Shown here: piece after piece, positions 25,966 to 63,878 of the stretch
How the letters are laid out: each line of letters opens with the position of its first letter
Numbering within the stretch: position 1 is the stretch's first letter
Assembly: GCA_006384855.1 (NCBI GenBank)
Contig: VCJN01001373.1
Coordinates: 62,001 to 126,000, forward strand
DNA: 64,000 nt
Source of the DNA: Tetraselmis striata
Taxonomy: Eukaryota > Chlorophyta > Chlorodendrophyceae > Chlorodendrales > Chlorodendraceae
Reading direction: 5' to 3'
Notes under the pieces: model-generated
What the model was told of the DNA's origin: nothing
Seen by the model: the letters and a program-made list of their open reading frames with translations, nothing else
Databases searched by the model: none
Translations under genes and position numbers: made by a program

Positions 25966-26638
25966 TGATGTAAATAATGCACGGAAGCAGAGACTACCCG
26001 CTACAGGGTACAACAACCCCCGCCGCGTGCGCGACAGGTGGTGGCTCCGCAGGCTGGGCGGCGACAAAGCTCCGAAGAGCTTGAACTGAATTACAAATAA
26101 TGAATCACGCATTCGTGACGGAACAACCGCCAGGGGAGCGATGGACGACACACTGGACCCCACCTGGGCGTACGGCACAGGTACTCGTCGTCGTTGTTTT
26201 ATTCAAAGACGATCAGATTTACCGCGTGCACAGCCGCGTACATGATATAGCGCTGGGTCTATGCCGATTCTGCTGTGGATCCTCATCACCTGATTGTAAA
26301 TTATCGCGCCCCGCGCCAACGATCACCAGTGCGGGTACCCGTACTCGCATTATTTTATCATGATACTGAAAATCCTTGTACGCGTAGTGGATTGTACCGT
26401 AGTACCGGAGGTACCGTAGTGGATTTACGCCGCCAGTGTGCCAGTCGTTCGGGTGTTGCTATTTATATTCATCGCCTTTGCCGCCACCTCCGCAAAACGC
26501 CACCGCCACCACTCCACCAGCCCACCACCTTCTGCACGCCGCCCCTACCCGTACCCATCACTGATCCGAAGTGAAGGCGTAAATCAATCTCCCTGCTTCA
26601 TTCGACGTGGTAACTCCTTAGCAGACTCCGACCGATCC

Positions 26639-31600: not shown

Positions 31601-34600
31601 TTCTCCGTTACAATAGTTTTCCCCTCTTCGCCGGGGTCCAAAAACGATATTTATCCGCAGACCGTTTCCACGGTACTATCCTGCTACTCGTACGACTGCT
31701 GCACAGTACAACGGGTACGGGCAGAAGTCGCCACCTGTCAGGGAAGGTGCGCGTGGTGGAGGGAGAGTGCTATTCAACTATCTGTCACACCACCAGTACA
31801 TACTGCGTCAGGTCAACTCGTACTGGGTAGTGGGTGCGAGTAGTAATACAGTACGTTGTACGTTGATTATAACGGCCGGTGCATGTGCCGTATATTTTGC
31901 GTGGAGATGTTACTAAACCAAAAAGAATCATGTTACTACTGGACGAATACCAGCATGTTCTCCCAGCATGTACGTCCTTTTTTTTTTAACATCCCTTGTA
32001 CATCCCTTGTCCGCTCGGTAGAGCGGTCGTCTCGTATGCGAGATCCCGGGTTCGATTCCTGGTCGATGTATTACGGCAATATCGTGTGCTGGGGCGGCTT
32101 CGGCCGATGTCCCGGGGCGAACTTTACTTTACGGCAATATCGGCCCGGCGTGTCCCGGGTTTACCCGGCTGATGCATTAGCCCTTCGGGTTTCGAATGGT
32201 AATGGTCTACGGGCTATGCTAGACCTACGACTGCAGTTGGCGCATGAGTTCAAGTGCTGGGGCGGCTTCGGTCGATGTCCCGGGGCGAACTTTACTTTTA
32301 TCTTACTTTTACCAGCATGTTCGCTACCAGTCCCGTACCTGTACCACTGACTGGTTCAACGGGGGACAGAGAGAAAAACCGGTGATACTACAGGCGTCAA
32401 AAGTAATGTACGAGTGGGTGTCAATGCCTGCGCACGCTGCATGCCACATGTCGCCATACCGATTGCTGCCCTGTGGGCATATACCTGGTACAAATATTTG
32501 CTCGAGAAATAAATGTACGCAAAGTCTAGGGTTATCAAGGATATTCCTATTTCCCTGCTCTGAGAACATGCGGGGTGATCTTGCGTCGTCGCGAGCGCAT
32601 GGCCGCGCTTGCTGGCGTATGGGCTTCAAAAATCACCGATACCCGCCCGCTAGTGCGCGCCGGAAAAGTGGAAATTACCGGTCAGCACTAAAACGCGCAT
32701 CATGGGCGGTCAGCAAAAATCGTAAAATAAGCCGCATTATATAAGGTCATAGTGTGGCTGCAAACTTTATCCGGTACTTGGTCGCACCCGCACCCGCGCC
32801 CGCGAAGTCGGCTCCCAGTCCGCGCTACACGAGCTTCGCTCGGGACCGATTAACTATATACGAGGGAATATGCCGACCGCGAGACTCGAACACGTGTTCA
32901 CTCTGAACACTCAAAAAGTGCGTCGCTTAAACGCTCCGGACGCAGCCTGAAATAAAACAATGAATGATGGTTTGTTTGTTTTAATATGCGACTGTATACC
33001 CGGTACCGAACGGCTCGCTGTAACACGTGGGGCGCGCCGATTATTTAAGGTTGTTGAACTTTGAAAACCCGTTAATTATTCTTGACGCCTGTAGTAACAG
33101 TTCGTCCTGGGACATCGACATAAGCCGCCCCAGCACTTGACCTCTTGCGCCAACTGCAGCCAAGTGTCTGGCATAGCCATTAGACCATTGCCACATTCGA
33201 ACCGCGGCTAATCGAAGGGCTAATGCATCAACCAGGTAAACCCAGGACACATCACAATATCGGGAGTTGCTATAACTACAGCTATAAACAGAAGGGGCAG
33301 AAAATTCTGACAAATTGTGAAAACTGGCGTGATTGTTATTGTATTGTATTATATTCTTGTGGATGGGAACCCCCCCCCCAGCCCCCCAAACAGAAGTGAA
33401 GTAAAATAAAATATTACTCTGGGTGTAGCTACCAAGCCGCACCTGGGAGGTGTAGGCGCATAGCGCAAAGCGCAGAGCGTCGGTGCCACACTCCTCAATG
33501 CCGTCGGGGAAGTCGACCTTCTGCCCAGCCTTAGCCTTGGCCACCTGCCAATGGGTTACAGACACGAGAGTGAGTTGGTGTTCAGCACACACGCGCGACG
33601 TCATTGCTGCCCTTTGGGCGGCAATGATGTGATGTTGGTTCGGGGGTAGTTGCAAAGGGGGGGGGGGGGGGGGGGGGGGGGCTACCTCCTTCTGGTCGAG
33701 GTTGCCGCCCTCCAGTGTCTCCCCCAGGCCCTCCAGGGAGATGCCCTCAATGACGTGGATGGGATCGATGACATTGCCAAGCGACTTGGACATCTTGCGG
33801 CCGTGCGCGTCGCGCACCATGGAGTGCAGGTACACCTGCTTGAAGGGCACCTGGTCTGAATGGCCAGTCACGAATGCACCACAGGAAACAAACAGCGTGA
33901 AGCGTCAGCCACGGGTTCAGAGATTGATTTTCGAAGTTGACCGGAGGGGTAGTAACTGTCTCAGTGATGCCAAAATATGAACAACAATTCTAGCGAAATG
34001 GGAGATCGGTCACAGGGCAGAGCGTGCAGCCCACACATGCCAGGGAGGGCAATTCGTGGCGTAGGTTCGGGAGGGGAGAAGGTAGGGGCGGACCGGTGAG
34101 CGCCATGCCCATCATCACCATGCGCGCGACCCAGAAGAACAGGATGTCATGGCCCGTCTCCAGCAGCGAGGTGGGGTAAAACTTGGCCAGGTCGGCAGTC
34201 TGATTGGGCCAGTTGAACACGCTGAAGGGGAACAGGCCGGAGGAGAACCTGCAGCCAGGAAGGGGGGGGGAGGGGTTATTACCGCATGATGGCGTAAAAA
34301 CCCCCATTCACCTCCGTGATCCTCTGGGAGGAACATTGAGCTGGGGTTCCACAACAGTTCATTGAAGCTGTCAACTTGCGCAAACAACTTGGATTTCACA
34401 TCCTTGCCGCGGATAAAGTATTAAATAATGTTTATTCAATAAAGTATTAAACCCGAGCAGGTGGCGCGCCGAACTTGATTTATCGAGTGTCAGGGTAGAG
34501 ACACCAGCGCCTGCGGTGTGTTTATTTTCGACAAAAGCCTTATTGTGGGGGCTTGTACCAGGTGTCCAACACATCCTCATCCTGCACCAGCGTGACCTTC

Positions 34601-43980: not shown

Positions 43981-45688
43981 CGGCTACAGGTCGCCCTCTT
44001 CGGACTGCGCCAGCCCGGCGGAGCAGGCAGCTTCGCGTCGCAACAGCAGCATCGGCCGAGGTGAAGGGTCATCTAGGGTACACAGCTTCTGTGCTGCAGA
44101 TGGGAGCGGTATTGCACTCGCGGCTTGACGACTGTTGCCCGCTGCTCAGCAGGGCGCGAGTATCCCCAAGGATGCGGTCAGCATCGTTCTGCTGTCTGGA
44201 GGCGTGGGCAAGCGCATGGGGGTACGGTTGGATCCCTGCTCACCTGCCAGCCAATCAGCATCCAATCCCGTGGCCGCAATACCAGCCTGCAGGGGTGTCC
44301 TCGCTGGAGCTGTTGAACGCAGCGCTGGAAGCTCATGGGCTGTGGTGCTGTGGTGTAGGCAGCCATCCCCAAGCAGTACCTGGAGCTGCGGGGCAAGCCG
44401 ATTGCCACCTGGAGCCTGGAGACCTTTCTCGGAATGGATGAGGTGGCAGAGGTTGTCATCGTCTGCGATCCCTCCTGGAAGTGAGCGCCGTGCTAACCGG
44501 CTCCTGCGTGCAGCGGCCACAGGGAGCCCCCATGCCGCCGGCCTGTCGCCCCTGAGTGCTCACATCGCGCCTGTGCGGGTCCATCGGTCAGGTACATCTT
44601 CGAGGAGGCTCTGCAGAAGGCAGGCTCCAGCAAGCCAGTGAAGTTTGCACTGCCGGGGGCGGAGCGTCAGGACAGCATGACGAATGGCTTCAAGGTACAT
44701 ACCCGCGTAGTGATGAGGTTGGTGTGTGAGTTGCCGCCGTGCCCGTGCAGGTCGCTGGGGTACGCGTAACCTGTGCGCACCCCCTTGGGGTACACGCCTG
44801 GAGACATGCATGGTACATGTGGCCAAGCGCGATGCTGCCGAGCGACGCAGTGATGCCGATGCCGTGACTTGGGCCCGCAGGAAATCCGGCAAGAGGCATC
44901 GCTGGTCGCCATCCATGACTCTGCTAGGCCGATGGTAACAGCAGAGGAGTGCCGGCTGTGCTTCAAGGTGCCCACCGATGCCATGCCCCCCGTTACTTCC
45001 GCCTCCCGTTGGAAAAGGGGATTCATAACAACCATGTGCCAGGCAATGGCTACCAGAGAATCGCCAGAATGACTGTGGTATCGCATCGTTCAGGATGCGA
45101 TGGCGACCGGCGCGGCGGTGCTTGGCGTCCCGGTCAAGCCCACCATCAAGGAGATCGGCCCGGACGGGTACGTGGTGAAGACCCTGCAGAGGGCTGCGTT
45201 GTGGGAGGTTCAGACGCCTCAGGTGAGAGCAACAAGCGGCCAGGCTGGTTCATCTGTGGGCTGAACGTGTCCAGGATGCCAATGTGCCTCCACCGCTCAG
45301 GAATACGTCCGGTTCCTGACTCCCAATCTGCCCTCGGCGGCTTTTACTTGGCAGGTAATCGCCCCGGCACTGCTTCCAGGAAGGCATCGAGCTGGTGGCC
45401 CGCAACAACCTGGAAGTCACAGACGATGTCTCGATAATCGAGGCTCTGGGCAAGCCGGTGAAGATCACCAAGGGGCAGTATACCAACATCAAGGCGCGCC
45501 TCCCGCACTAATGCGCATCAATGACCCGATGTGCAGGTGCCCGAGCGTTCGTTTGCCGATAGCCAATTCCCACGTCATCGCTCGCATTTGACGGGTGCCA
45601 TTGCCGCCGCCCACAGGTAACTACACCCGACGACATGTCAGTGGCAGAGCGCTTCCTGGACGAGCGCAAGGAGAAGGTGCCGGCATAG
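43636..45688 (+). CDS. ISPD: 2-C-methyl-D-erythritol 4-phosphate cytidylyltransferase (IspD), plastid
   Basis: Joins CTP and MEP to give CDP-methylerythritol, the third step of the plastid MEP route to isoprenoids. Exons: 43636-43792, 43990-44060, 44153-44221, 44359-44480, 44592-44694, 44881-44967, 45094-45222, 45355-45493, 45617-45688; about 315 residues. The first ~75 residues are Ala/Arg/Thr-rich with almost no acid, a transit peptide. The CTP-binding loop [12 protein letters not shown] is at about 88-99, followed by PKQYLEL, then [47 protein letters not shown] and [14 protein letters not shown], all in family order and position. Exon 8 has one extra base near 45372-45378: VIAPALL is in one frame and [16 protein letters not shown] in the next. 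The last intron begins AAG|GCGCGC, so it would be a GC-AG intron. Confidence 0.93.
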
Positions 45689-46087: not shown

Positions 46088-48010
46088 CTACACGCGGGTC
46101 ATGTCCATGTGGTTGCGCGGGTACGCGGGGTCGTCCTGCGCGGAGCCACCGCCGCCAGTGAGACACGCGGGTCAGTCGCGGTGGGTGACACGGAACCGCC
46201 GCGGGGGGAGGGGGGCATGTGTGTGGTGAGTGGTGGGGCGGTCGGGAGCCTCACCTCCGCCGGGCCGTACATGTTGTCGAACTCCTGCCGCTGCGCGCCC
46301 GTCATGATGAACTGGCTGAAGTCCACCTTGTCGCTGCTGCGGTGCCTGTAGCAGCCACAGCATGCGCAGGGCACGCTGCATGTGGCGGGCGGTGCAGTGC
46401 GTCAGGGGCTGGCCGCAACAGCGGGGGGTCCAAGATCTTCGATTACTGATCAGAGGGCCTTCATCATCCATTCGAGGGAGATGGGTGCTACTCGTGACAG
46501 TCAACATAACGAGGATGGCGGGCACGGCATGAGTATACCAAATGACATGCCGGTGGCACATGACATACCAAGCACATCATCTAACGTGCATCCAGTCATT
46601 TGCATACAAAGTACAAATTTGTCGTAAGCATGATCAATAAATAAATAACACGTGTGTAGATAGAGCCAGCAAGATATTGGGGGGCGGGGGGGGGGGGGGG
46701 GGGGGGGGGGGGGAACCTCTTGTTCGGCAGCTTGTCGATGCGCCCCATGAACAGGAAGATGAAAACCGCCGCGCCGACAATGAAGGAGCCCGCGAGCAGC
46801 ATGGCCAGCCATTGGTAACCGGCGGTCCCGATCACCGTGCAGCAGAAGGTGCCCTTCACCGCTACGTAAATCGGGCTGAGCACCCGGGCCTCCACCTGCG
46901 CGCGCCGGCAGCCGCGGTGGCGCAGTCAGAGAACTTCATCGCGGCGCGTAGTTCATATGTTCGCTCGTTGGTTCGGCCTCCACAACATTGGAGAACTTTG
47001 CCCAACACCATGATTGGTTTGCATTTCCTTTACTCGCGCAGTAGACTGCTGAGTACATGGAATGTGGATCGACTGGATCCCAAGCACGGGGCAGACGCCT
47101 CACCGTGGCAATGCCAGTCTTGATGATGTCCAAGGTGTCTGCGACCGTGGTGGAGATGCGATCCACGAGGCGCTGGGCAGGCGGCCGCAGACCAGCCGCC
47201 ACCAGCTGCTTTTGCACCTCAGACGTGACACTCTCCACTGTGCGCAGCATCTGCACGCGCGCCGTAAGCAGGGGGTGGGGGTCAGGGCGTGCATCCATAC
47301 ATACGTAGCTGGATCATACGTACGACTAGAGGTACCTACGGGCCACCAGACAACAGACATGATGAGGCTGGTGATTGCTCCAGAATTTTACGAGGTGCCA
47401 CCGCACAAACAGCAGCGACCGCAATCAACAAATACAGTGGCAGATCAGGCACGGCATCGGCACTCGTCTCAAAGACTGTAAAATGATACTGTAAAAAGTG
47501 TGAGCAGCTAACTTCGCGGGGGGTGTGACAGTCCCACGACTTGTACGTGTACATAATAACGGGCGCGTCGAGTAAATATGTCACATACAACGCCGCGGTG
47601 GCACGCAAAGCGGAAGCTGATAGCTGGCGTGCAGACAGAATACTCCAGGTATACTTGTGTCATGTGCATGTGTGTGTGGGTGGGTGCCCCCCCGGGGGCA
47701 GGGCGGGGGGGGGGAGGGGGGAGGGGGGGCTGATGGTATGGTTTCGGATCATTGAAACTCTGTGGCATGGCAGCGCACCTGGTCCACGTCAAAGCCCACC
47801 ACCTCGCTGATGGCTTGCGTGACGTTGGACAGGGTGCGGCCGAGCGTCCAATACTCCCACAGGTTGACCATCACCATGCGCTGGTCGGGCGTGAGGGAGT
47901 CCATGTTGCGAATGGCCAGCGACACCTTCTCCTCCACGAGGACGCACCTGCCAGTGTGTGTCAGAGCAATGCCGCCACGCTTATCAGTGGTGGCATCAGG
48001 TGCGCAAGGG

Positions 48011-48068
<58 letters not shown>

Positions 48069-51000
48069 AGGGGGGGAGGGGGGGGGGGGGGGGGGGGGGG
48101 GGTAGTTCATATTTTGTTAGAGCCTTTGCCGCGTGTGGACTCAAGTAGGATGTGTGGACGCTGGGTTGCTTGTACATGCACAAAGGGCGGCTGGCGCGTT
48201 GCTTGTGTTATGGCGCGTACTGTCAATCGAGGAGCATGAGCACCGGCGCATGGACACACAGGCCCTGATCAAACGGGCGGCCATGCCGGCACCCGCATAG
48301 GCATTGAGCAGGGCGAGGCTGGCGGGGGCGGGGGCGCACGAGTCCGTCCCCACGGTGGTGACCGCGCCGTACGGGATGAAGAGGATGAAAAAGAACAGGA
48401 GGCAGACGAGCAGCACAAACGTGAAGAAGCTGTACATGAAGGGGACGACCACCCACTGCGCGCGCAACACGGGTGGCGGTCAAGAGCGGGCGGGGCTTTT
48501 AGAAAGGGATCAGGCACTCGGTGGTGGTTCCTCAGCCATTCGGAACGTAAGGCACAGAGACGGTGACCGCGAAGGTGCCGCTCACCACGCCGATGATGAT
48601 CATGAGGGAGGAGAAGATGGCCAGCGCGAACAGCGCGTACGACACGTACACGCGCGTGTCGTCCAGGGTGATGGTGAGCTCGCGGTACTGTTGGACCTCC
48701 GCGTACTGCTCCTCCACGGCGTCCTCCAGGTCCTGCAGCGTGTTCTCCACTCCCGCCAGGGCCTCCGGGCTGAGGTACGTCTCTTGCACTCCCTGCTCGC
48801 CAAGCAACCAGGCAGCAGGGGGGGGGGGACCCGGCCAGTGGGCTCAGGCGGGGCAGCAACGCACGGTGGCAACGCGCCCGAGACGCAATGGGGCGCTGGT
48901 GGCGGGCGACCCACCCGCACGGTTGCATCCAAGCTGTAGATGGAGCTGTTCAGGCTCTCCAAGAAGCTTACAGCGTCCTGCATCCCAGTCTGCGCACAGG
49001 GGAAAAGGGGCAGGAAGGTTGTATGATGATCTGGGCATGATGCGGGCGCCAAAAGCCACTGCCGCGCAATGGCTGCCAACCGGTACGATCATGCTGCGTT
49101 CACAGAACTGGTGTCTTCACATATACATAGATAGCGCGGGTTTGTACTCCCCCACCCACCAAGAGGGAAATGGTGTGATGTACCAGTCGGAATACATGAA
49201 GATGCACTACAAAAACACCACGGATTACCCAATGCGTTGTCGAAAGGCAAACCAGTGGATTATTTTGACGGTGTGCGCAGCCGATCCAATCCTACGCGGC
49301 GTGCATGGCTGGCGCAGCACCTCAAAGTTGGCGGACGCCACCTCCCTGGCTTCGCGCAGTGTGGCGTTGACGGTGCCGGCCGCGTCTTGGAGGCCGGGCA
49401 GGCTGTTGGGGGTGTTGAGGGCAATATGGGGGGGGGGGGGTGGGGGGGGGGGGGGGTCAGCCACCGGGTTGCAACACGTGTGTGTGTGTGTGTTAGGGGG
49501 GGGGGGGGGGGGGGGGGGTTCACCTGTTCTGGATCTGCTGCTGGAGGCTCTGGATGCTCGCCTCCAGCGTGGGCAGCCCCAGCGCCTGCCCATATGATTC
49601 CGCAAGCGCCCAGGGCAGGACGGCGAGTCAGCAATGGACAAGTCAAGATCAATGAGCGCCGCGTGCGTGGCGGCACGCACCTGGAGAGCAGCGCTCGCGG
49701 CGTCTAGTTTGTCCAGCACCGCCTGCGGAAGCTGCAGCGAGGACTCCAACTGCGACTCCAGAGCGCTGAGTTGCGGCACACGCGAAAGGGGGCGAAGGTC
49801 AGCCATACGGGCCGGAGCAGGAGGGTTAAATTGAAAGGGAATGAAACACATCAGGACAAGCATCACAGACAAAACAAACTTGTTCGAGGGGTGGCAACAG
49901 AAACGGTATTTACGACTCACGTCAGCGCGCCCACCGCCGCCGCCACTGTGCCGTTGTACTGGTTTGCAAGCTCTGGAGTGGGCGCGGCGGTGAAGGCCTG
50001 CGCGGCGGCGGTGCTGGCATCCACCGGCTGCTGTGCCTCCTGCAGAGCGCCCTTCATCCCTCCATTCTGAAGAGCCGATGGGGTGCGGCGCAGTTAGGTA
50101 CGCGTGATGCATCGGGGGGGGGGGGGGGGGGGGTTAGCTAGGGACAACAGTGATGACAGGAAAAGGCAAAGCGAAGCTCGCAACAACGCCATATTGATAT
50201 ATACGCCATATTGATACAACGCAATGTGGCAGTCCGGATAAGCAGAACGGTGCGGTGCACTTCAGGGGCGGGGGGCGTCAGCAAGCCCTCACCCCATCAC
50301 CGCCCTCGATGTAGGTAGTCAGCGCGGCTATCTCCACGGCGCTGATGCCCTGCAGAGAGGTCTGCGCCCCCTGGAGCGTGGAGAGGGCGTCCGTGTACGG
50401 GGGGCCCACCAGCGCGTCCAGGGTGGTCCGGAGCTGCGCCGCGGTGGCGCTGGCGTCGCTCAGGGCTGAGGAGCTCAGGGCGCTGAGGTCCAGGTTGGTG
50501 AGGGCGGCGCTCGCCTCTGGCGGCAACCTGGCGCAAGCAGGTCACAGGAGGGCAGCTACGGTGAGCGTGGTGATGTGTGATCGATATCATAGCACAAGCC
50601 GGGTGCCCAATCCAGGCGTCGAGTAGCGCGCCTGCTCTGTGGTGAACCGCAAGTGTAGGCTGCCGTGTGGAGGAACTGATGCATCACGCCCATGCAAAAA
50701 CAAAATACAATGCTGATGCATTGTTAGACGTGTACGCACTGACCCATCCATAACAGCTTGGAGTTTGAGCTCCAAGCTGAGGTCGCATGCACTGTGCAAA
50801 TTTTAGCTATGTAAAAAATATTGCACATCCTCCGCATCGTCGTGAATATTGACATCTACAGGGGTTAGGAGGGGGGAGGGGTCTTATTTGCAGTGTCCAT
50901 ATAACAAACCGCCTGTGCACCCGTACACTCTCCTTGAATAGCACGGAAAATAAAGGTGCGGCTGTCATACACAGGCCGGCAGGCAGCATAGGCAGTGGTG

Positions 51001-53854
51001 TGCGACAGCCATAAGGAGTGTGCGTCAGTGTCGCCCGGGGGGAAGGGGAGTAGCAGACCTGATGATTGTGGCGTTGATTTCCTGGATGTTTTCAAGAGAA
51101 TCGTCCGCGCACCGCGCAAGGCCCTGCAGCAGCTCCTGCAGCGGCTCGACCATGGGGGTGAACCTGCTGACCTGCTGGCTCAGACTCTGCAGGGCGCTCA
51201 GCAGGCGCTGCGACTCGCCGATGGAGGTGCTCAGGGTGCCGTTGGTCAGGGCGGACCTGGAGGCCCTGCAGCTGCAGCACAATGCTGTCCAGCTGGGGAC
51301 AGGGAAGGGAAACGCGTCGTCAGCCGGTGGTCCTCTTGCTTGCCCAGGTGGACGGTCGTAAATTCAGAAGAAGGGGGGGGGGGGGGGGGGGGGGGGGGAC
51401 CTCCTGTATCTTTCCGCCCAAGTCAAGATTGGTGTTGGCGGCAATGACAGGCTGCAAGTCCGGTGCGGAGAAGTTGCTGCGGGCAGATAAGAGGGGGCGT
51501 CAGTACCGCCCCCGGCTTGCCTCCCGGGCTGAGTGCCAGGAGGGGCGAGCAGGTGAGCGGGCTGCGGGGGGGGGGGGGCACCTGGGCACCGCTGCGTAGG
51601 CAGCTAGACTGGCACGCGCTTGCTGCACCATGTCCCCCCGGAGCTGCGTGATGGAAGCGCCGGCGCCCGTGGCGCTTGTCAGGGTGGTAAGGAAGCCTCC
51701 CTGCAGTGCGTGAGGCAGTACGTGATCAGCCTCAGGACGTGATAGGCACAATTCCAGCGCAGCAATTCCGATGGGTGTCTCTGTGCGCCACTGTCTCTGA
51801 TTGGATGTGTGTCTGTTTCACACGACCGCATACTCTGCAAATTGCAAATTTCCGCCTTTGGTGGCGGCCGGCTCATGTGACAATGACTACACCACTGGTC
51901 ATCATTATTCAATTGCCAAGGAAGTCCATTGGTTCCGACCATCCCGGCAGGTCACCTTGTGTGCAAGTGCGGTATCTTCATAATTACTGTAGAATTGTTA
52001 AATACGGATATCATAGACTTGACACCTTGATTCACACCACGTCCGGTGTTCGCCAAATATACATATACATACGTATGTAATGCACAACAGCATATATGCA
52101 GTATCTCCTGGTCGCTTTTCCATATATCAATCACGAAATATATGGACATGACCTTTTTCTTTGGTTTCTCTTCTTTCCTCACAGAGTTTGACTAGTTCAC
52201 ACAGAAGTGGGAGAACGCGAGAGGGGGCGCCTGTTGATGGGGGGGGGGGGGGGGGGGGGGGCGCTGGGGCGCTCACCGTGATTCTGCCGAGCCCGGCTGT
52301 GGCTGCCCCCGCAGCGGCAACGACCTCGGCCAGCGCGACGGCCACCTCAGCCAGGTAGCCCGCCGCGGTGCGAGCCAGCTCCGTCAGCTGCTGCCCTTGA
52401 CCGATAAGGCACTGCGCAGCGCGGCGCCCAGCGAAGGCAGCCTCAGCCGGCCACATTAAAGGTTGGATCCCCCCCCCGCCCCCCGCCCCTCAATGCTCCC
52501 CTCTTGGCCCACCTTCCCACACCTCTGCTGCGCGGCACGCACCTGGCTGAGAGTGTCGAAAAACGAGGGCCCAAAGTTGGCACGCAGAAAGTCCAGCAGC
52601 GCGTTGGTGTCCGTGATCAGCGCCTTGCCCAGGTCCACGAGGGACCCGCCAAGCGCGCGCACCCGTTGCACGTACGCCTGCGCAGCGGCAGGGTGGGGAT
52701 GAAACATACATGTATAGATATGCACGCATGTACAGCTGGCAGCCACTGCCCCCCCCCCCCAAACACCCGCCCACAACCAATTATGGATGTTGATTTTTAT
52801 GTTCTCCTGTTTGCATATGTCTCTTTCTTTCCGCCTGTTAGCCAGTATCTCCTTCTCTATTTGGTTTATCCATGTGCATGTCGTAGGAATGTCAAGGGGG
52901 CGGAGGATGGATGGATGTGATTCGCACCACCAACCGCGTCGACAGTCTCCCAGGTCTGCGAGACGACCTGCGGGCCGGCCGTGAAGCAGCCCCACACGCA
53001 GCAGGCCATCACGCAGAGCAGCAGCAGCGTAATGATGCACTGGAGGCTGCGGTGCCAGCAGCCCTTCAGCACTTCGAAGGGGGCCGCGCTGGGCTTGCAT
53101 GAGTTGCAGGCGCCGCTGGTGGGGCAGCAGCAGCGCACGGAGGAGATGATGGCGCGCCTGGAGTGGCGAGGAGGCCCGGGGTGGGTGGGGGGGGCTCAGT
53201 GGCCGGCAGACTGGCCCCCAACGGCGACACGCCGTAGCGTCACCGCGTCACCCACACAGCAGCATGGAATAGGGCTCACCACAGGATGAAAGACAGGAGG
53301 AAGACGAAGGCCACGCCGAAGAAGGCAGCTGCCCAAGGCAGCACGCGCGGCAGGACGTAGTCCATGTAGTAGTTGAGCTCGACGGGGTTGTACGCGCTCA
53401 CGTTGCGCAGGAACTCGCTCGAGACGAAGGTGCCCTGCGCAGCGCGCCCATGCCACCGCCAGTGGGTCAGCGCCTTGCCTTGTCGCTGTGGCCAGCACCC
53501 TCCTCAGTTGCTGAAACCAACACAGGCGTTGCGCTTGGGGACTAAAGCACTCCACACGCCACCAGCACCAACGCCCTCCCCCCCCTCCCCCCTTGCGTGC
53601 AAACCTCTCCCTGCCCGCCGCCACCACCTCCCATCCTAGGATACCAGGGCGGGTTGACTCGCCTCGATGGCGCCATCGGTGGGGCATACATCCAGCGTCT
53701 CCAGCCTGGCGGCCACGTCGCCTGTGAGCGTGCCATCGAAGTCCACCACGTTCGAGTCCACCCCCCAGGTTGCGATACGCGGCAGCCCCATAGTCGGCGC
53801 TGTAGCCAGCTCCTTCAGCGCCGCCGTCACGTTGCTCAGCGCGCTGCCCGCCAT
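46088..53854 (-). CDS. Prominin-like five-pass membrane protein (paralog 1, complete)
   Basis: Exons: 53854-53645, 53434-53280, 53157-52935, 52677-52543, 52411-52277, 51700-51582, 51476-51401, 51292-51059, 50527-50293, 50066-49921, 49765-49681, 49585-49524, 49402-49321, 48989-48915, 48792-48586, 48455-~48293, 47947-47779, 47250-47104, 46895-46717, 46345-46255, 46135-46088; about 990 residues. TM1 is LPRVLPWAAAFFGVAFVFLL; the next loop is Cys-rich (CCCPTSGACNSC); TM2 is LQCIITLLLLCVMACCVWGC. A long helical loop with N-x-T sites follows. TM3 is YALFALAIFSSLMIIIGV, TM4 is FFTFVLLVCLLFFFILFIPY, then a second long loop and TM5 (WLAMLLAGSFIVGAAVFIFL) before a ~60-residue tail ending DMTRV. This order and the Cys-rich first loop match the prominin family of membrane-protrusion proteins. 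Function here is inferred. One extra base near 51254-51258 shifts the frame in exon 8. The end of exon 16 is uncertain. Confidence 0.8.
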
Positions 53855-54465
53855 GCCGCTTGTTCGCCGAGGGCCGGCCGGTCGGCGCTGCTCGCCAGCT
53901 CTCGCTGGACGACCACCCCCCACCCCGGTTGTCGCGGAGCTGCTCGCTTCAGCTGACGAGCACCGTGAGCTGGACCCCTGCGGGGTGACGGCGCGACTCC
54001 AGGAGCGTGCTGTTGCGCCGGGAAGCTGCGGGCTGCGGTGCGGTGCTGAGCCTGGATTGTCTCGCGGCGAGGTTGGTCAAGGGCACTCGTCAAGTGCCTC
54101 GTCTATTACGAGCAAGCGGTCAAGTGGGCGCTGCAGGCGCGCGGCCGTGGCCTGCTGGCGTGGCGGGCGCCGATGAATCAAGCGCAGCGCGCTGCGTCGC
54201 ACGCGGCACGATGTGTTCTCGTACGCCTACCTATAATGATCCGTTATACTTATTGTTGAATTCCGTGAATCATTATTGCTGCCAGCGGTGCCAGAGGTTT
54301 CAAAGTTGAGTCTTTTATGCCAAAAAGGTTGCGCAGGCTCGATTACACAGACAAGAGCCGAAATTGGCAGGAAGGTTGATAAGTGAAAGCGTAGAGGGCG
54401 GAAAACGGAGTCAGGTGGGGTGCTGCGTGTGAAGTGAATATCGATCCTATATGGGGGGGAACGCA
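53855..54465. other. Upstream region of the minus-strand prominin-like gene
   Basis: GC-rich near the start codon, then AT-richer from about 54220. No core-promoter motif is clear. The YR-element direct repeat begins at 54466. Confidence 0.35.
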
Positions 54466-54626
54466 GCGAAACTGGAAGATAGCAGGCTCAGCGGCTATGG
54501 CTGCTTTAATGTCAACTCGTGCTGCACCCAAAAAGGGCGCAACGACAGGTGCCTAGAAACCCGTAGTAACACGCACTTTTTAGCAGCACGGTAGCCGGAA
54601 AAACGGTTTGGGAAAGGAGGAAACCC
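54466..54626. repeat. Direct repeat, left end of the YR element
   Basis: Begins GCGAAACTGGAAGATAGCAG and ends GGGAAAGGAGGAAACCCC. It matches 57470-57630 at about 80% by eye. Confidence 0.85.
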
Positions 54627-55420
54627 CATTAACAAGTTTAGAACATTTCAAAGTTGAGTCTGGTTTTGCCAGTGATGAGCGAACGGAGAGAGCGGTAGAT
54701 TGACGGAGAAGGGGTAGCGCCAGGTCATGAAGGGGGCACCGGGAAGGCCACCGGTGCGGAGTCTTGTTGGACTTACTTGGAAGTGGCGTGGGGGGGGGCG
54801 ATGTGGCCAAAGAAGAACCATGAGCCAGGTGAAGGAAGAACGTTGGGGTCGATGTAGTCCAGAACGACGTCGGAGTTGGTGGCCCAGCCGCCTTGGTAGC
54901 GGCTGTGGGACAGTGGAGCTCCAATGGCGTTAGCGGCAGATGCTGCTCCTTGGCGAAGGCTGTTTGAGCTTGGGAAGTGCCGGCTTGGGGGGGGGGGGGG
55001 GGGGGGGGGACCGGGGCCAGTCCGACAGTGTAGCGGCAGTCCAAGACTTGAAATGCTCGCTCAGGGTGACCGCCCAGAAGTTTGTTTCGGCCAAGGCGAT
55101 AGGAGTTAGGGGAAAAGATTGTACGTGGTCGATGCAGTGGTGCATGCGGAGACGCGCAATGCGAGGGTGCTCCGACACTGGAAGGAGCAGTACGCGCAGG
55201 TCGTCGGGGCCGCGTCGACTGGCGCGTCCCTTCTCGCGGTACTCCTGCAGGGTAATGTTGTAGTCGTCGACATGCACGTCCCGCACTCGGCAGGACACGC
55301 CAGTAAGTCCATCCCTTGGCCAAAAACATGAACTTGACAACCGAGGCCAGTAGCATGACGAGGGCTTGGAGGTCGTCGTACTGGTACTCGGGCGGGGGGG
55401 GGGGGGGGGGGGGGTTAAGG

Positions 55421-55473
55421 GGTTTTAGGGATATAACCCTAAAACTCTAAACCCTAAACTCCAAACCCTAAAC
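55421..55473. repeat. Interstitial telomere-like tract with inverted junction
   Basis: Contains GGTTTTAGGG, a short ATATAA spacer, then CCCTAAAAC and several degenerate CCCTAAA units (CTAAACCCTAAACTCCAAAC). It is flanked on both sides by G homopolymers (55393-55414 and 55486-55513). The plant/green-algal telomere unit is TTTAGGG or TTTTAGGG. Confidence 0.75.
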
Positions 55474-55519
55474 GGCGGGGGTGCGGGGGGGGGGGGGGGG
55501 GGGGGGGGGGGGGATTGGC

Positions 55520-56700
55520 AGCCATACATTTACCAGCGCAGAGCAGCAACGGAGCGCGCCCCCGGAACAGCCCACCCAGCCCATGCACCTACATCCACAG
55601 CCCCACCACCAGCTGCCATGCCTGGAGCGCAGGCGGACGATGAGGAAGACCACGAGGAGAACGACAGCGCCATGGAGGTGGACACCGCCCAACGTGCGGC
55701 AGTAGAGACACCAGGTATGGCTGACATATCCCTCGATTCCCCCCAACGCTCAACAATGCACCGCACATTCCGGGAGGGGACACCCACTGGCACCACGGAA
55801 CGACTGGCAGAAACTCCACCACCTCACCACCGCAACCACAGAGCTGCTTGCAAAGTCCTCTCCTGCCAGCCAACCCGCAATAGCCTCCGAACTGGCCAGC
55901 CTCGCAGCGGAGTCACACAAGCCGCGCAACCCACCGCGCTTCTCCATCCAGCTGGAACGCCACCCCAGCCAGCCCACCCCAGCATGCAAGGGCAAGGCAG
56001 CCACATCAGCCAAACATAAGAAGAAGCAGCCCAGGGGCCGTAGCCGCTCGGACGGCGCCACCCGCAACCGCAGCAGGAGCAAGCCACGCCTCTCTGGCAC
56101 CCGCGGCTCAGACAGCGAGTGGGAAACGGACGATGATGCAGCCCACCCGTCTAGGTGCTCGCACCAGTAAGCTGCTGAGCGAGCCACCGCAGCAACAACC
56201 AAGCCAGCTGACTCAAGACCACCGCCCACCACTAACCTTGTGCCCGGTGCAGCCCATACACCAACACACACCCAGAAACTCACCACACACACAGAACACC
56301 CACCGCTGATTCCCACAACCACCACAGGCAACACCTACATACCCAAAATTAATTACATGTCGGAGGGCATCGCAGCCCCCACCAATCATACTAGCCGGCG
56401 CAGCGGTGGATAAATACTGAGCACCACATAGCTATTCCGGTCAGCCCCCTTCCCCCATCTCACCTTGGTAGGTGCAGGCGGGACGCTTCGGCGGCCTAAG
56501 CTTGCATGCTGAGGTCTGAATGGGATATGCCTGAATTAGGTAGGGACAGCAGGGGGGCGCTGCTGTTGTCCTAGCTTCAGCCCGCTGGCATGAGGAGGGG
56601 TTTGGGCACACTGGAGGAAGGCCGTTAGCTTGAGATGTAATTACACCTAGTGTTCCCTATCATGGTCAGAGATAGCATGTCCTAAGAACAACTCAGTCCG
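55520..56700 (+). mobile_element. LINE-like fragment: ORF1-type coding plus 3' untranslated sequence
   Basis: From about 55618 the plus strand encodes MPGAQADDEEDHEENDSAME and further hydrophilic sequence. A one-base frame change near 55800-55820 leads into DWQKLHHLTTATTELLAKS and a long Lys/Arg/Ser tail (SAKHKKKQPRGRSRSDGATR) to about 56170. A basic, low-complexity protein without enzyme motifs suits a LINE ORF1 or another nucleic-acid-binding protein. At 56530-56640 is a GC-rich, T-rich 3'-UTR-like stretch (GGGGCGCTGCTGTTGTCCTA). No reverse transcriptase lies between, so ORF2 would have to be deleted. The assignment is tentative. Confidence 0.35.
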
Positions 56701-57469
56701 GGCCAGTGGATGCAGCAGACTAGCAGTTGCAATCAGTTTCAATTTCAATTTCGATGGCCTCGGCGTGATTCCGAGCGCGCGAGAGGTATCAGGGGGTGAA
56801 ATCGTGGATGGTTGCATGGACGTAAGGTAGCAGCTCGTCGAAAGCTACGAAGAGAGCGGCCATGTGGGCTCCGAAACACGACATCCTAGTACCCCTATTG
56901 GGCCGGCAGACGCACGCTGGTCATCCTGCTTGCGGTACTATTCGTTCGTCATGTTGGTGCGTTGGGGAAAGAGCCCAATAAGCACTCGGCTGACCGGTCG
57001 AACGGCCTCGAAACCAGACTATGCTCGCTGCCTTAGCTATGGCACCGCGAGGTACTCGTCCTCGTCACTCACGGATTTGGCTCCGACACGGCCGCTATGG
57101 GCTAGCTCTAGCAAGTCGGGCCGCTTTATTGCGGCTCCCCCGCTGCATGTCGGCTATCCCGCGACGCGATGCCCGGAACCAGAGCCATGTAATCCGTCTC
57201 CATCAACAACACGGTCACGAGCTGTCAATGGAGCTAACGTTGTTGCAAGCTCGCGCAGCTATGTAGACTGCTGGGCCTTCATGTCTGCTTGTATCGATTG
57301 GAGCGTCGGCTCAGCGGGTTCTTCTCTATATCTGACATGGTGACCCACAGACGTACGGATGAGAATTTCACACACGGGTGGTGAGCCGGGTGTGGTCATC
57401 TTGAACAACCTGGGGTGACCTTGCTCGCAACAGTTTGTGAGACAGTCCATCACTGCATGTACTAACGCG

Positions 57470-57630
57470 GCGAAACTGGAAGATGGGAGGCTTAACGGTT
57501 ATGGCTGCTAACCCTTTTATTTCTACTTGTGCTGCACCCCAAAAGGGCGCAACGACATGTGTCTAGAAAGCCGTACCACTTATTAGCAGCACGGTCGCCG
57601 GAAAAGCGGTCTGGGAAAGGAGGAAACCCC
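57470..57630. repeat. Direct repeat, right end of the YR element
   Basis: Begins GCGAAACTGGAAGATGGGAG and ends GGGAAAGGAGGAAACCCC. Same orientation as 54466-54626. Confidence 0.85.
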
Positions 57631-59509
57631 CGAACCCGACTTATCTAGCTATGAGCAAGTTGAAAGAGGGGTAATACATTTTGGAGGACTGAACCTTTGT
57701 CTGTGGCAAAAGACTAGGATGACTTGTGGCTAGGGGGGGGACATATGTATCAGTAGGTAGCTCCAGCTTCGAGCTGGCCCCGGAGTAGGAGGAACTTCCC
57801 TCCTCATGTCCGTAGTTCTTTGCCTATCGCTCTTTCACGTGTAGCCAGGGATACTAACCCCGTCACCGCGCGGCGTGCGGTGTAATACTCTGACGACGAG
57901 AAAGTAGGCCGTAAAAATGGTACAATCAGTTCGAATACGCGCGTTTAAAAAGCAGCGACTAGTCGCTAGTCGCTACTACGCGTAGAGAACAGAAGGGTAA
58001 TAATAATAATATTCAGTACGCGCGTGCTAGAGACGAGTACAGGCTGCGGATCGGGGTGCCCTCTTATCGCGGGGCACTCGGTGCACCACCTAGGCTCACC
58101 AGGAGGCCTTGCTCGCAAGAGATTTCCTCGGGGTCCTGAGCTGGGTGGCCGCTCGAGAGCGCGCTCGCCGCCTCATCAGACGGCTCAGATTCGTCTGCCA
58201 TCCCGTTGCTGAAGCTGCACAGCACGTCCGAGGATCACCCACACACACACACGTGCATGCGTGGCCCGGACTCTGATGAACCGTGTGCGCATCACTCATC
58301 CATCCCGCCTCATCATGCGGGATGCGGGCCGCTTTTAGGCGGCTTGCTGTGTTGATTTTCTAGTACTACTTTTTGTAGCATGTGGATTTGTTACTGCCGT
58401 TTTTGAACTTCACACGAGTACAGGTACTGTAGTCGCTACGTGGACAGTAACATGGATATACCTTGGCCTAGTAATTTATGGTATTTTTTGTTATTTTAAT
58501 TAATATTAAATTTCTATTAATTAAAACTCCCAAATAAAAAATACCCCCTGTGTTAAGAGTAATATAAAGTAATATATTGCTGGAGCTCATGTTGTGGCAC
58601 GTTTGACTCGCAAACACATCGGCGATGGCAGCCAAATGGTTTGTTACATTGCATGTTGCACACCATATCTACTCGTGTGAGGATATATCCTATACCCTCA
58701 CTAACCCTAATCAACAATAGCACACATTAAGGCGCGTAGCGCGCGCAACACTCGTAGCGGCTGCGCCTGCGCCCTGTCGTCCGCACTGCGCCTGCTGATA
58801 TATCAGCACGGCGCCCTGCCGGACTGTAATCAGATCATCATACACCATCACTCAGTGGAATGGCACTCACCTTCTCCACCACGCGCACCTTGCCTCACAA
58901 GCAACTCGCTACATGCGTACATTAGTCAAAAAATAATCATATCATCATCAGCAGGGGGTGCTAGGGGTTCTTTGGGTGTTGCTTGACCCTGCTCAGCTAG
59001 CAGCATGTCGTTAGCCTCTACATCAGTCAGCGCGTCCTCATCAACCATGTTCAGCACATCATTAACGTAGTTCTCTAGCAAGCGCAAATTCACATAGCAA
59101 TACTACAACTTCACCACATTCTCATGTTTGAGAGAAGCGCGGGTCTTGGTGGCCACGCGCATGTGGACGATATTCGTGCGCTCCACAGGGCATGCGGCGG
59201 GCGAGCATGATTGTCAAGATGCGGAGAGCAACCTCTCTCCGAAGGCATGGCTTGACGCGATTACTCCACCACAACAGTGCACATGCCGCGGCCTGGCACC
59301 GACTGTGCCAATCGGCTGCGTACCGACGGGGTGCTAGCCGGTTCGCCCGCCATGACGCCTGCTAGTGGCACAAACAGTCGCCTCCTCGCCTGCCCGGGAC
59401 GTGGCGCCTAGCTCTATCTGCTGGGCGGGAGGACGGCAGTGCGCAGTTTCCTTCACTCTTTACTGGTAAAAATCCTTACCGGTGCTCAAAATAACACTGT
59501 CGCATCCAG

Positions 59510-59636
59510 GTGTCGCATCGCCTACCCAGGGCTTTCCGGAACTGGATTGCTGCCTAAACGGCCGTCGTAGAGACGCTGCAAGGGTTTCACTGATGCCAGT
59601 CCTGTCCCGGGGGCGGAAAAAAAAAGAAAAAAAAAC
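59510..59636 (+). repeat. 3' tail of a non-LTR retroelement, copy 3
   Basis: Runs from TCGCATCGCCTACCCAGGGC through GCCGTCGTAGAGACGCTGCA to CCCGGGGGCGGAAAAAAAAA. Same family as 553-622 and 8337-8450, ending in an A tail. Confidence 0.75.
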
Positions 59637-59819
59637 ACTGTCGCATCGAGCGTGTCTGGCGCGCAGCGGGGCCCGGTGTGCGCCGCGCGCTCGGGCAATT
59701 TCTTACTACAGTAAAATACCAGTAACGGTAATTAATAGTAAACTACTATTAATTGGAACCCCCAGCAAAACAAAAAATACCGGTAATGGTCCAGGTATGA
59801 ACATGGATGAGGATTAGCA

Positions 59820-59884
59820 GTTGAACTTTTTGGTTACAGGGAGAGCGTCCGGAGAATGCACGCAAAGTACTGGGGGAGGAAAAA
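59820..59884 (+). repeat. Interspersed repeat Z, copy 2
   Basis: TTGAACTTTTTGGTTACAGG followed by GAGAGCGTCCGGAGAATGCA and a GGAGGAAAAA end. It matches 43152-43262 without the extra stretch inside the first copy. Confidence 0.75.
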
Positions 59885-60157
59885 GCAGTATTAGCAGTAC
59901 TCTGTGCCTTTACGATATTCGTTCCCGTATGTAGCGACTATGTACCGGTATATACATCAGCCCGGGGACGGTTCCGGTACGGCTGGTCGCTCTAGCGGAC
60001 GAGTGCAACAGCAAGCACGCCGGCGGATGCCGTCGCTTCGGCTTCGCCGGATGGTTTTTTTTAGCACGCCGGCCGGTCGTCAATTTTTTAGCTGCCACCG
60101 CCTCGTCGGGCCCCGCGGCCCGGCCGGCGCTAAGTGTTCTGCTTAAATGTACGGACT

Positions 60158-60271
60158 TTTCCTTCCCCAATACTTTCCGTGCATTCTCTAGAGACGCTAT
60201 CCTTCACCTGCGCTTTTGAGTTTTTACAGGGAGAGCGTGAAGAAACTACACGGAAAGTACTGGGGAAGGAA
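60158..60271. repeat. Hairpin made of two opposed repeat Z pieces
   Basis: The left arm 60158-60188 (TTTTCCTTCCCCAATACTTT then CCGTGCATTCTC) is the reverse complement of the right arm 60240-60271 (CACGGAAAGTACTGGGGAAG), with a ~50-base loop. The right arm plus ACAGGGAGAGCGTGAAG is the third repeat Z copy. Confidence 0.75.
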
Positions 60272-60668
60272 CTGCTTATAACCAACTTTACGGCAACAAG
60301 CTACACGCCAGCATCCTGGCGCATCATCAGGCAATGTCAACTTGTCGTCACGCTCACGCCTCGTCGCTCTGCGTCAATACCCGGCCCGACTCCTGCACGA
60401 CAACCTGCAGACGGCAACCAGCAGTACCTTGTGACCTCAGGCGAGACACTGACCCTGCAGATTTACGCTATGTACTGATCAAGTCGCCCTTGCAGCGGGG
60501 CCAAACAGGCGAAGCTTAGTCGCAGCCGTGCTTCAGCGTGCGGCGCTATGATTGCGACAAGTGGCGGCCGTTAAACGAACTTTTCGCGGACTAATATAGG
60601 CACCCCGCGCGACGCAACGCGGCAAACCCTTCGCACACCAGCCCAAGTGGACGCCAGAGACAAGCACC

Positions 60669-63600
60669 ATGGTGACCTTGTTCCCAGAAATCCCGATCGA
60701 GGCTGTTGATTCGGAGACAGTCAGGTACAGCGGAGCGGTGGGTGAGAACGGAAGTCTGCTCTCGACGGTGGAGGTCTGCGAGGATGGCGGGGGTGGTGGT
60801 TGGAAGGTGCGGCGGAATGCCGCGGACACCCCGAGAGTAAAACTAACAGTGCAGCAAATCGCCACACACATCACATCACATCACAGCGTCAACAAACAGC
60901 GAGTGGCCGTGGTTTGGCTGATAGATTCCACTGCAGCATTTGGTTAACCAAACTGCGCGTCCTCTCAATGCAGAGTCTGCTCGAATCGGAGGCGTGGCTG
61001 CGCAACGTGTCGGAATTCAACCCGCAGGACGGTGGATACTATGCGGATCACGTGCTCCCGCGGGTACTGCCGTGGGCTGCCGCGCTGCTGGCCGTCGGGC
61101 TGCTCTTCTTCCTCTTATTCGCCGTCTGGTGCGCCACCGCCCCCCCCCCCTTCCGCCCTACCCCGTCCTCCTCCCTAGGGGTATAGCCGTGGTTCCTCGG
61201 TATTGGTATGCGTGCATGCAAGAAGGTGGCTTCTCGGTGCGGCAGGCGGCGAGGCACTAGTGGCATATTGCGATGGGGTCAAATGTGCGACAAAAAAACG
61301 AGAACAGCAAGCTTCATATAGACAGGTCCAAAAACCACGAGGGGTTAATATTTGTTGAGGGGGGGGGGGGGGGGGGGTGCATACTTAAATGAGAGTTCTT
61401 TTAGTATTTACATCCTCAGGCGGTGTAAAGTTGAACGGCAGCATGCCGCCCTCTAAACTGCCAGTTCAGCTAGTTTCAGCTAGTCTCACTGCTGTGCAGT
61501 TTGTCATTTATAATTGTCTCAACAACGGGGGAGCATGTACCGGCTGCATGACGTCTGTCAACTTATTGCAGGCGGGTGGTGCTGTGGGCGCTGCGGTACG
61601 GCTGCTGGAAGCGCGCCGGCAGCCGCTACCAGCCAACCGGATCCCCCAGCAAGGTGCTGTCCGGCAGTGACATCCTGCCGCTGCGGGTGATCATCACGCT
61701 GGGCCTCGTGGCCGTCATCGCCGCCAGCATTTGGGGCTGCGTCGTGGCGGGCCCGAAGTTCGTTCATCAGTTTTGGGACTATGTTGGCCAGTGGGCGGTG
61801 AGTGCCCGCCATGTCTCTGCCCCGGGTCGACTGGGTTGGCAAGCCACGGCGTCCAACTGATGCCTGTGTGCACGCCAGGGCTACGCGGGTGGGGTGCTGG
61901 GCCTCTGGGAGTCGGTGGTGCGGCAGAGCGCGACGCTCTTTGATGCCAGCGAGGAGCTGGAGCGCTACCTGCAAACCAATGCCGATGCGCTGAGTGTGGA
62001 TGGGCTCCTGGAGGTGAGGCACACTCCTGACTTTGTTGTGGGGGGGGGGGGGGGGGGGGGGGTTCATAAGCGAGGCGCACTGTCAGCTCAGTTTACAGCT
62101 CAGAAAGGGAGGGTTTGCCCCTCGAGCCCGCATTCGCAAGCGCCCCGGCAGCTACTAAACATGGCAGTGCTTTCTGTGGCAGTGCGTGGACCGGGTGACG
62201 GACCGCGTGCCGGCGGCCTCTGCGTACCTGGCAGCGCACTTGGAGCGGGTGGCGGTGCTAGTGCCGCAGGTCTCCATAGCCAGCTCAGCTGCGCTCAGCT
62301 CTCTTGCATACTTCCAGGTGCGCCGCTGCGCTCATCCTGAACATTTGCCATGCAGTTTGGTGGCAGCCGCCGCCGTACATAGCAGCCCCGGATAAATTCC
62401 CGCATGGACGGCGTTATGCGTGTCTCCTGAAGCATGCGGGCGTTTGGCTGCGTAGGAAACGAGCATGCCCTTCCTGAGCGACATGACGGACACTGTGACG
62501 GAGATGCTGGTACAGCAGAATGAAGTCCGCCGGCTGGCGCGCGTCAGTCAGGAATCATACAGGGAGCTGCCAAGGTGAGCCAGCCGTGCACGCCGCCTGA
62601 GCCTCACACTGAGTGACTCTCTCACAAGCATACACCTAGATGCGCACATGCGCATGAGACCAAGCGTGCTGAACTCTCGGGTCCGCTTGGAAACGAAATT
62701 GGTGCAGTCTGGCCGGAGACGCGTTTGATGCCGTCGCCCAAATCATCACCACCAACGTGCAGCTGGACCCTGTGGGCCGCCTGGGTGTGATTGCCGGCGT
62801 GTCGGACCAGCTGGTGGAGCTGAACGCCACCATCAGCCGCGTGCCTGAACTGGTGGCCGGCGTGCGTGCGCTCGGCACATTTGTCCGGAACCTGGAGGAG
62901 CTGCGCGCAGGGCTCCCGGAGTTTAGCGGCCGCTCGCGCCCGCTGGCGGAGCTGCTGGACCAGGCGTCGGAGTGTGCGGTGGACTCTGTGGGCTTTGCAA
63001 CGCATGTCAACGCCACCATTGCTCAGTGAGTGCGCCGCCGTAGCCAGCCACAACGCCGTGCTCCCCAGCTGCATGCGAAACAGGACAGTGGCGCGTGCCT
63101 AAGGAATGCGGCTGGATGGGCGCTGGCTTTTGTTGATGTTCTGGTTCGGACTGGGCAGCGTTGTGAGGGTGGTGGATGGCGGTGTGTGACCGTTGCACCT
63201 GCCCCCACGCGGCAGGCTGCCTGCCAACGCGAGTTTTGCAATCAACAACCTCAACAACAACACGCAGAGCGGCTTCTCCATGCTGCGGGATGCTCCGCAG
63301 ACGAAGGCGTTGCTGGAGGCCCTGCTGGAGGGCGTGGTGGTGCCCGAATACTTCCGGGTGCGTGCCTGGGCAGGATCCCCTATATGGTGTACTTCCATGA
63401 GACGGCATGCGCCTCCCTGCTTGAGAGCCCGGAGCCCCCATGATCCGCAAGCCCCTGGGCCCCGGGCGCTGTGCCGCCCCATCCCAAGCGCCCACTCACC
63501 TCACCCTGTGCATTACTGCCTGATGGGTAGGAGCTGCTGGGGCAGCTGGAGCAGCTGGAGCTGCAGGTGCGCGGGTTTTCAGGCCAGGACATCAACGGCG

Positions 63601-63878
63601 TGTACCGCTACCTCAACGGCGGGAGCTTGGTGAGCCCTGTTCTTGCCGAATTGTGGCCCTTGCGCAAGTCCCCCCAAACCCGAAATCCCCCATGCCAGCG
63701 CAGGCGTGTCTGACGTTTTCTGCGGCACGCAGTCCGGCGGGCTGCGGGAGGCGCTGGAAGCCACGGCGGCGCCCCTGCGGCGGAGCACCAACGCGGCGGT
63801 GCTGTTTGCTCAGGCGGGAGGGGAGCTCGCCTACACGCGCTTCTTCAGCACCACATTAGAATCCTCCGCCGTGCTCAC
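60669..63878 (+). CDS. Prominin-like membrane protein (paralog 2, 3' end outside window)
   Basis: Exons: 60669-60806, 60974-61128, 61572-61797, 61879-62013, 62183-62317, 62456-62574, 62708-63025, 63216-63357, 63531-63629, 63733-63878, all in phase; the last donor (AC|GTGAGC) leads past the window. The start is CACCATGG. The ~538 residues seen cover an N-terminal ectodomain, TM1 (LPRVLPWAAALLAVGLLFFL, ~75-98), a basic loop, TM2 (IITLGLVAVIAASIWGCVVA, ~136-158) and most of the first long loop, which has N-x-S/T sites. It aligns from end to end with paralog 1: LRNVS-x(2)-NP, YY-x-D, LPRVLPWAAA, WGC-x(2)-AGP. Five exon lengths (155, 135, 135, 119, 146) are identical in both genes. The Cys cluster of the first loop in paralog 1 is mostly absent here. 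No signal peptide is evident. Confidence 0.8.

Follow-up and report, generated by a model that had tools for sequence, protein, structure and literature searches.

In a 64,000-nt stretch of the green alga Tetraselmis striata (the window; positions 62001-126000 of its contig, in an assembly of 224 Mb and 2903 contigs), two homologous genes lie head-to-head, each encoding a large membrane protein with five predicted membrane segments (TM1 to TM5). The minus-strand gene extends from 53854 to 46088 and the plus-strand gene begins at 60669. The two starts are 6.8 kb apart, as the initial annotation of the window had proposed. Judged by their sequences, the genes are real and ancient paralogs. The best explanation, in which we have about even confidence, is that such an old head-to-head duplication gave rise to two pentaspan proteins which would be remote relatives of prominin and Tweety, and which would have a prominin-like role in membrane curvature. 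On sequence grounds, the pair most likely consists of very remote relatives of the prominin/Tweety superfamily, placed nearer to prominin by a Cys-x10-Trp motif at TM5.

The two proteins are 30% identical over 934 alignment columns (E = 2e-106). Splice sites and comparison of the two paralogs guided the manual construction of both gene models. Fifteen of the 17 plus introns coincide in place and phase with one of the 20 introns of the minus model, and exons of 155, 135, 135, 119, 146, 62, 82, 147, and 179 bases have the same length in both paralogs. The minus model has 21 exons with GT/GC-AG splice sites and ends in a stop codon at 46088; its protein of 978 amino acids (aa) contains one X, at a one-base frame break in exon 8 near 51257, and no other stop. 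The other 20 exons are open, and the paralog is unbroken at the corresponding place. The initial annotation had called this gene complete, which is true of the run of 21 exons to the stop, but not of exon 8, nor of the first ATG, whose frame is not conserved in a second copy described below. The plus model comprises 18 exons and 913 aa up to just past TM5, with the final tail exons outside the model. This gene had been described as partial, which applies only within the window (63878, the far end of the annotated region, is where plus exon 10 ends); the contig continues, and exons 11-18, just beyond the window end, encode TM3, TM4, and TM5. A model in which minus exon 16 runs on into CAPAPASL... 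was considered and ruled out. Because minus exons 16 and 17 together (116 + 169 = 285 bases) have the length of plus exon 16, the minus exon 16 donor was placed earlier than a plain reading would suggest. The donor of minus intron 1, at 53663, is GC (GAG/GCGAGT), and this is the sole GC-AG intron across both models.

Another copy of the plus gene, together with exon 1 of the minus gene and again head-to-head, is present on contig C1068 (20431 bases), which stops there. All 18 modelled plus exons are present and the 17 intervening introns retain GT/AG ends. Its exons are 98.3-100% identical to those of the main locus, and aligned intron columns are 97.0% identical. C1068 may represent either the alternative haplotype or a duplication of recent date. 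The plus gene differs between the two copies at 15 codons, 10 of them synonymous and 5 nonsynonymous, giving a ratio of nonsynonymous to synonymous rates (dN/dS) of about 0.17. Purifying selection therefore acts on the plus gene; the ratio covers this gene alone, as C1068 carries just the first minus exon. In genome searches with both proteins, all of the matches listed were on these two contigs (at least 40 for the plus protein at E ≤ 0.01 and at least 32 for the minus protein at E ≤ 1). Because only top candidates are scored in searches of this kind, a distant third family member could have escaped them.

Hydropathy places TM1-TM5 in a 2+2+1 order in the minus and plus proteins and in human prominin-1, for which a presumed sequence served here and in all comparisons below. 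The earlier assignment of five segments in the prominin order, including the TM3-TM4 pair, is thereby borne out. One extra, weaker hydrophobic stretch within the TM2-TM3 loop of each algal protein (peaks of 1.87 and 1.62) was judged to be a loop helix. Counted between hydropathy segments, with the human protein counted in the same way, the TM1-TM2 loop is 35 aa in the minus protein and 34 aa in the plus protein (30 in human), the TM2-TM3 loop 528 and 538 aa (263 in human, so that the algal loop is twice the prominin size), the TM3-TM4 loop 16 and 7 aa (31 in human), and the TM4-TM5 loop 146 and 147 aa (285 in human). Two long helical loops had been anticipated; the first, at ~530 aa, fits that description, but the second is only about 146 aa. 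The helical periodicity count observed in the first loop was reached by 5 of 500 shuffles (minus) and by none of 500 (plus). For the second loop, the corresponding numbers were 0/500 for the minus protein and 36/500 for the plus protein, which is not clearly above the shuffles, and the human loops gave 2/500 and 28/500. The short loop between TM1 and TM2, also expected to contain cysteine, has six Cys in the minus protein but is not Cys-rich in the plus protein, which has one. A Cys follows TM4 in both algal proteins, as it does in human. All 19 N-glycosylation sequons (9 minus, 10 plus) fall in predicted outside regions, although this is mild support only, because little of either protein is inside.

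Similarity to human prominin-1 is faint, and is located mainly in the minus protein. The best BLAST segment between the human and minus proteins is collinear at TM1-TM2 (103-226 to 115-220, E = 0.045). When the algal pair was compared with the human protein by hhalign, the best segment ran in register from TM2 onward (158-225 to 160-219, E = 0.0096). In class-preserving shuffle tests against human prominin-1, the whole minus protein had a z of 2.9 (3/200 shuffles reach its score) and the whole plus protein a z of 2.3 (7/200). By segment, the scores of the minus protein were weak, the best being that from its N-terminus to TM2 (z 3.3), followed by the first loop (2.7; plus 0.4), TM5 (2.1), and the second loop (0.8; plus -0.6). 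Both proteins carry a C-x10-W motif just before TM5 (C891/W902 in the minus protein, 872/W883 in the plus protein), at positions whose human counterparts we take to be Cys784 and Trp795. An unforced local alignment of the minus TM5 to human pairs C891 with C784 and W902 with W795 without gaps. This motif is the most specific pointer to prominin in the two sequences, and is suggestive. It falls short of proof, because shuffling the TM5 regions produces it in 2.9% and 5.5% of cases. In a 2024 eLife study, Trp-795 is described as nearly perfectly conserved across curated eukaryotic prominins, with no counterpart in metazoan Tweety (PMC11405016).

A number of results weigh against a prominin origin. 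A search with the Pfam Prominin family (PF05478; cut-off 34.3 bits) had been set beforehand as part of the test of the initial annotation, and the outcome was negative: neither protein matched PF05478 or Tweety (PF04906) at E ≤ 10, while the human control scored 1028 bits to PF05478 and reached Tweety at 7e-6. Profile searches of the genome with both families gave 0 matches, a result weakened by short exons because these searches were run exon by exon. The best BLAST segment between the plus and human proteins (E = 3.2) is away from any membrane pair, and the hhalign probability is only 4.3%. Shuffle scores for the plus protein are near null from the N-terminus to TM2 (z 0.9) and at TM5 (z 0.3), as are those for TM3-TM4 in both proteins (minus -0.6, plus 0.3). 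The chance frequency of the motif counts here as well, as do a second C-x10-W match at 700 in the plus protein and the best alignment of the plus TM5 to human, which leaves its Trp unpaired with Trp. Curated prominins have been delimited by five helices in a 2+2+1 order, two extracellular loops of >300 aa, and intracellular loops of <25 aa (PMC11405016). The second algal loop, half the human size, lies well under 300 aa. This limit is strict, because the human loops measure 263 and 285 aa by our count. The limit on intracellular loops is not applicable to this count, which gives 34-35 aa (TM1-TM2) and 7-16 aa (TM3-TM4) in the algal proteins and 30 and 31 aa in human. The loop sizes, moreover, match neither prominin nor Tweety. 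Finally, a scan for an upstream signal-peptide exon found 0 candidates for the plus gene and 1 doubtful candidate for the minus gene.

Since neither protein has a Pfam match and the second loop is too short, we have not filed the pair as prominins. What stands of the prominin-like identity first proposed is the paralogous pair, the topology order, and the motif of the Cys784/Trp795 type; on these sequence features the two proteins would be a divergent prominin-like pentaspan pair, for which the prominin label is plausible but unproven. Other searches added no relatives. PDB sequence searches returned 5 chains for the first minus model (E 0.38-7), 5 chains for the pair profile (E 0.41-5), and 1 chain, a viral coiled-coil protein, for human prominin (E = 0.0013), all judged unrelated. 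Scans of viral and prokaryote contigs in IMG/VR and GTDB with the pair alignment gave 28 and 73 pattern matches, respectively, none of which was confirmed as a relative.

The same negative results could be read as the mark of a green-lineage pentaspan family without prominin descent, in which convergence or chance produced the 2+2+1 order and the Trp ahead of TM5. The missing Pfam match, the near-null segment scores of the plus protein, the asymmetric loops, and a motif expected by chance in 3-6% of cases per protein all suit this explanation. It is, in our estimation, a possible but doubtful one, given that the faint matches of the minus protein lie collinearly at both TM1-TM2 and TM5, and that the motif is retained in both paralogs at 30% identity. 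A Tweety-type pentaspan (TTYH or plant Tweety-like), which would handle lipids or regulate volume instead of organising protrusions, would share the 2+2+1 order. TTYH has been reported in plants (PMC8273234), and with about 146 aa the TM4-TM5 loop comes close to the ~120 aa stated for TTYH extracellular domains (PMC11405016). The absence of any PF04906 match in the proteins or the genome, the first loop of ~530 aa, and the presence before TM5 of a Trp that is missing from metazoan TTYH (PMC11405016) make this identity improbable.

Two further proposals concern the state and the rank of the pair. The single frame break in exon 8 and the shifted first ATG in the second copy could mean that the minus gene is a pseudogene and that the plus gene alone is functional. 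We regard such partial decay as improbable too, because the reading frame is open in 20 of the 21 minus exons, the paralog has the same length for many exons and the same place for many introns, and base-count errors are likely in a homopolymer-rich draft sequence. More ambitiously, the pair might represent a third branch of prominin/Tweety, restricted to green algae, in which the first extracellular loop has twice and the second half the usual size, and the divergent head-to-head pair might have been kept as the two subunits of a curvature organiser for the flagellar membrane or for ectosome shedding. We consider this unlikely.

The predicted arrangement of both proteins has the N-terminus outside, followed by TM1-TM2, the long helical extracellular loop, TM3-TM4, the shorter extracellular loop, TM5, and a cytoplasmic tail, and both are rich in N-glycosylation sites. 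If they are taken as remote prominin/Tweety relatives that resemble prominin in function, which by analogy is our best single guess, the long helical loop might form a rigid stalk outside the membrane, and the five helices might bind sterol near the TM5 Trp. Like prominin, the proteins would be expected to collect at curved membrane, be it that of the flagellum, of plasma-membrane protrusions, or of shed vesicles, where they would stabilise curvature via the stalk and the sterol contact at TM5. The two divergent proteins might also assemble into a mixed complex.

The gene starts are uncertain. In the second copy, the first minus ATG is out of frame, owing to a length difference in the bases that come directly after it. 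By eye, an AG lies 8-11 bases before the homologous ATG (the second ATG of the minus gene and the first of the plus gene), in the same phase in both genes, and this would fit an upstream signal-peptide exon in both. A compact shared promoter between the genes was considered and dropped, the gap between the gene starts measuring 6.8 kb at the main locus and about 9.2 kb in C1068. The additional 2.3 kb or so in C1068 includes a piece resembling 58042-58368, reversed. Via the second copy, 54460-54627 and 57467-57629 are seen to be alike (about 80%), as debris of a mobile element would be. The features of the locus are collected in Table 1.

Table 1. Modelled features of the head-to-head gene pair (window coordinates)
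Feature	Position	Strand	Content	Remark
Minus gene	46088..53854	-	Five predicted membrane segments (2+2+1), ~978 aa	Exon model
Minus exon 1	53663..53854	-	Predicted extracellular N-terminal region	GC-AG donor; first ATG without conserved frame in second copy
Minus exon 2	53280..53434	-	TM1	TM1 runs on into exon 3
Minus exon 3	52935..53157	-	Cys-rich TM1-TM2 loop and TM2	
Minus exons 4-14	48921..52677	-	Bulk of long TM2-TM3 extracellular loop (~530 aa)	Helical periodicity above shuffles
Minus exon 8	51059..51292	-		Frame-break exon
Minus exon 15	48556..48792	-	End of long loop and TM3	
Minus exon 16	48340..48455	-	TM4 and beginning of conserved Asp-x-Cys after TM4	Donor set by paralog
Minus exons 17-18	47104..47947	-	Most of TM4-TM5 extracellular loop	~146 aa between segments
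Minus exon 19	46717..46895	-	Cys-x10-Trp motif (C891, W902) and TM5	
Minus exons 20-21	46088..46345	-	Predicted cytoplasmic tail and stop	
Intergenic region	53855..60668		Between both starts	6.8 kb
Plus gene exons 1-10	60669..63878	+	N-terminus, TM1, TM2, most of long loop	Gene extends past window
Plus exon 2	60974..61128	+	TM1	155 bases, the length of minus exon 2
Plus exon 3	61572..61797	+	TM1-TM2 loop (one Cys) and TM2	

Regarding the host, the chlorophyll-binding family has 63 matching stretches in the genome, and the two open reading frames of this family that were read are presumably of the green, LHCII-like type. IFT46 is present, with 2 matches (best 8.8e-64). The genome is thus photosynthetic, probably of green type, with at least one intraflagellar-transport gene. 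The initial annotation had placed the pair in a flagellate or formerly flagellate green alga; the light-harvesting proteins and IFT46 agree with this, but a single gene such as IFT46 is no proof of a flagellated cell.

The window contains 22 G-runs and 8 C-runs of at least 12 bases, but no A- or T-runs of that length. Read on the coding strand, C-runs of at least 12 occur in 7 of the 20 minus introns, four starting at most 5 bases from the donor and a fifth at 15, and G/C runs of this length are absent from the modelled coding exons. These runs could be linked to splicing or could be a property of the assembly. Seemingly convergent on the minus gene is a plus-strand gene at 44129-45688; a piece of it, in one open reading frame, resembles what we presume to be IspD of the MEP pathway, but Pfam gave no match for that single frame. 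Elsewhere in the window are class I tRNA synthetase exons (29342-33904, minus strand; tRNA-synt_1 and anticodon domain), presumably of valyl type, a protein kinase (26420-27598, plus strand), and an ACT-domain exon (4236-4715, plus strand), which we take to belong to an aspartokinase-like gene. Two near-identical 240-codon open frames about 2.8 kb apart (20437-21156 and 23262-23981) are probably a repeated element.

Should the link to prominin be true, the pre-animal role of prominin could be studied in green algae, whose cells lack microvilli and photoreceptor outer segments but have vesicle-shedding cilia. Should it be false, the pair would still represent an uncharacterised large pentaspan family in an alga with a retained gene for ciliary transport.

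A prominin-like gene in a green alga would be of a known kind, because putative prominins have been published from fungi, excavates, SAR, and green plants (eLife 2024, PMC11405016), from Plasmodium, where the similarity of PF3D7_0104100 to the profile was barely significant and was confirmed via a Toxoplasma sequence (PMC8115857), and, as prominin-like proteins, from Naegleria (PMC10967083). These remote members were identified by topology, cysteines, and weak profile similarity, and it is to such descriptions that we liken the algal pair. No paper on an algal pair of this sort was among the titles and opening lines of abstracts listed in our literature search on prominins and TTYH in algae, protists, and plants. 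With animal prominin (CD133/PROM1, PROM2; PF05478) the pair shares the 2+2+1 segments, a predicted extracellular N-terminus, sequons outside, a Cys-rich TM1-TM2 loop (minus protein only), a Cys after TM4, and Cys-x10-Trp before TM5. In contrast to prominin, it has no hidden Markov model match, its models lack a signal peptide, and its first loop is longer (528-538 vs. 263 aa in human) and its second shorter (146-147 vs. 285 aa). With Tweety (TTYH; PF04906) it shares the 2+2+1 order and the short second loop; unlike Tweety, it has a first loop of about 530 aa instead of ~120 aa and an equivalent of Trp-795, absent from metazoan TTYH, and again there is no model match. What sets the pair apart from both prominin and Tweety is its unequal pair of loops and its old head-to-head duplication.

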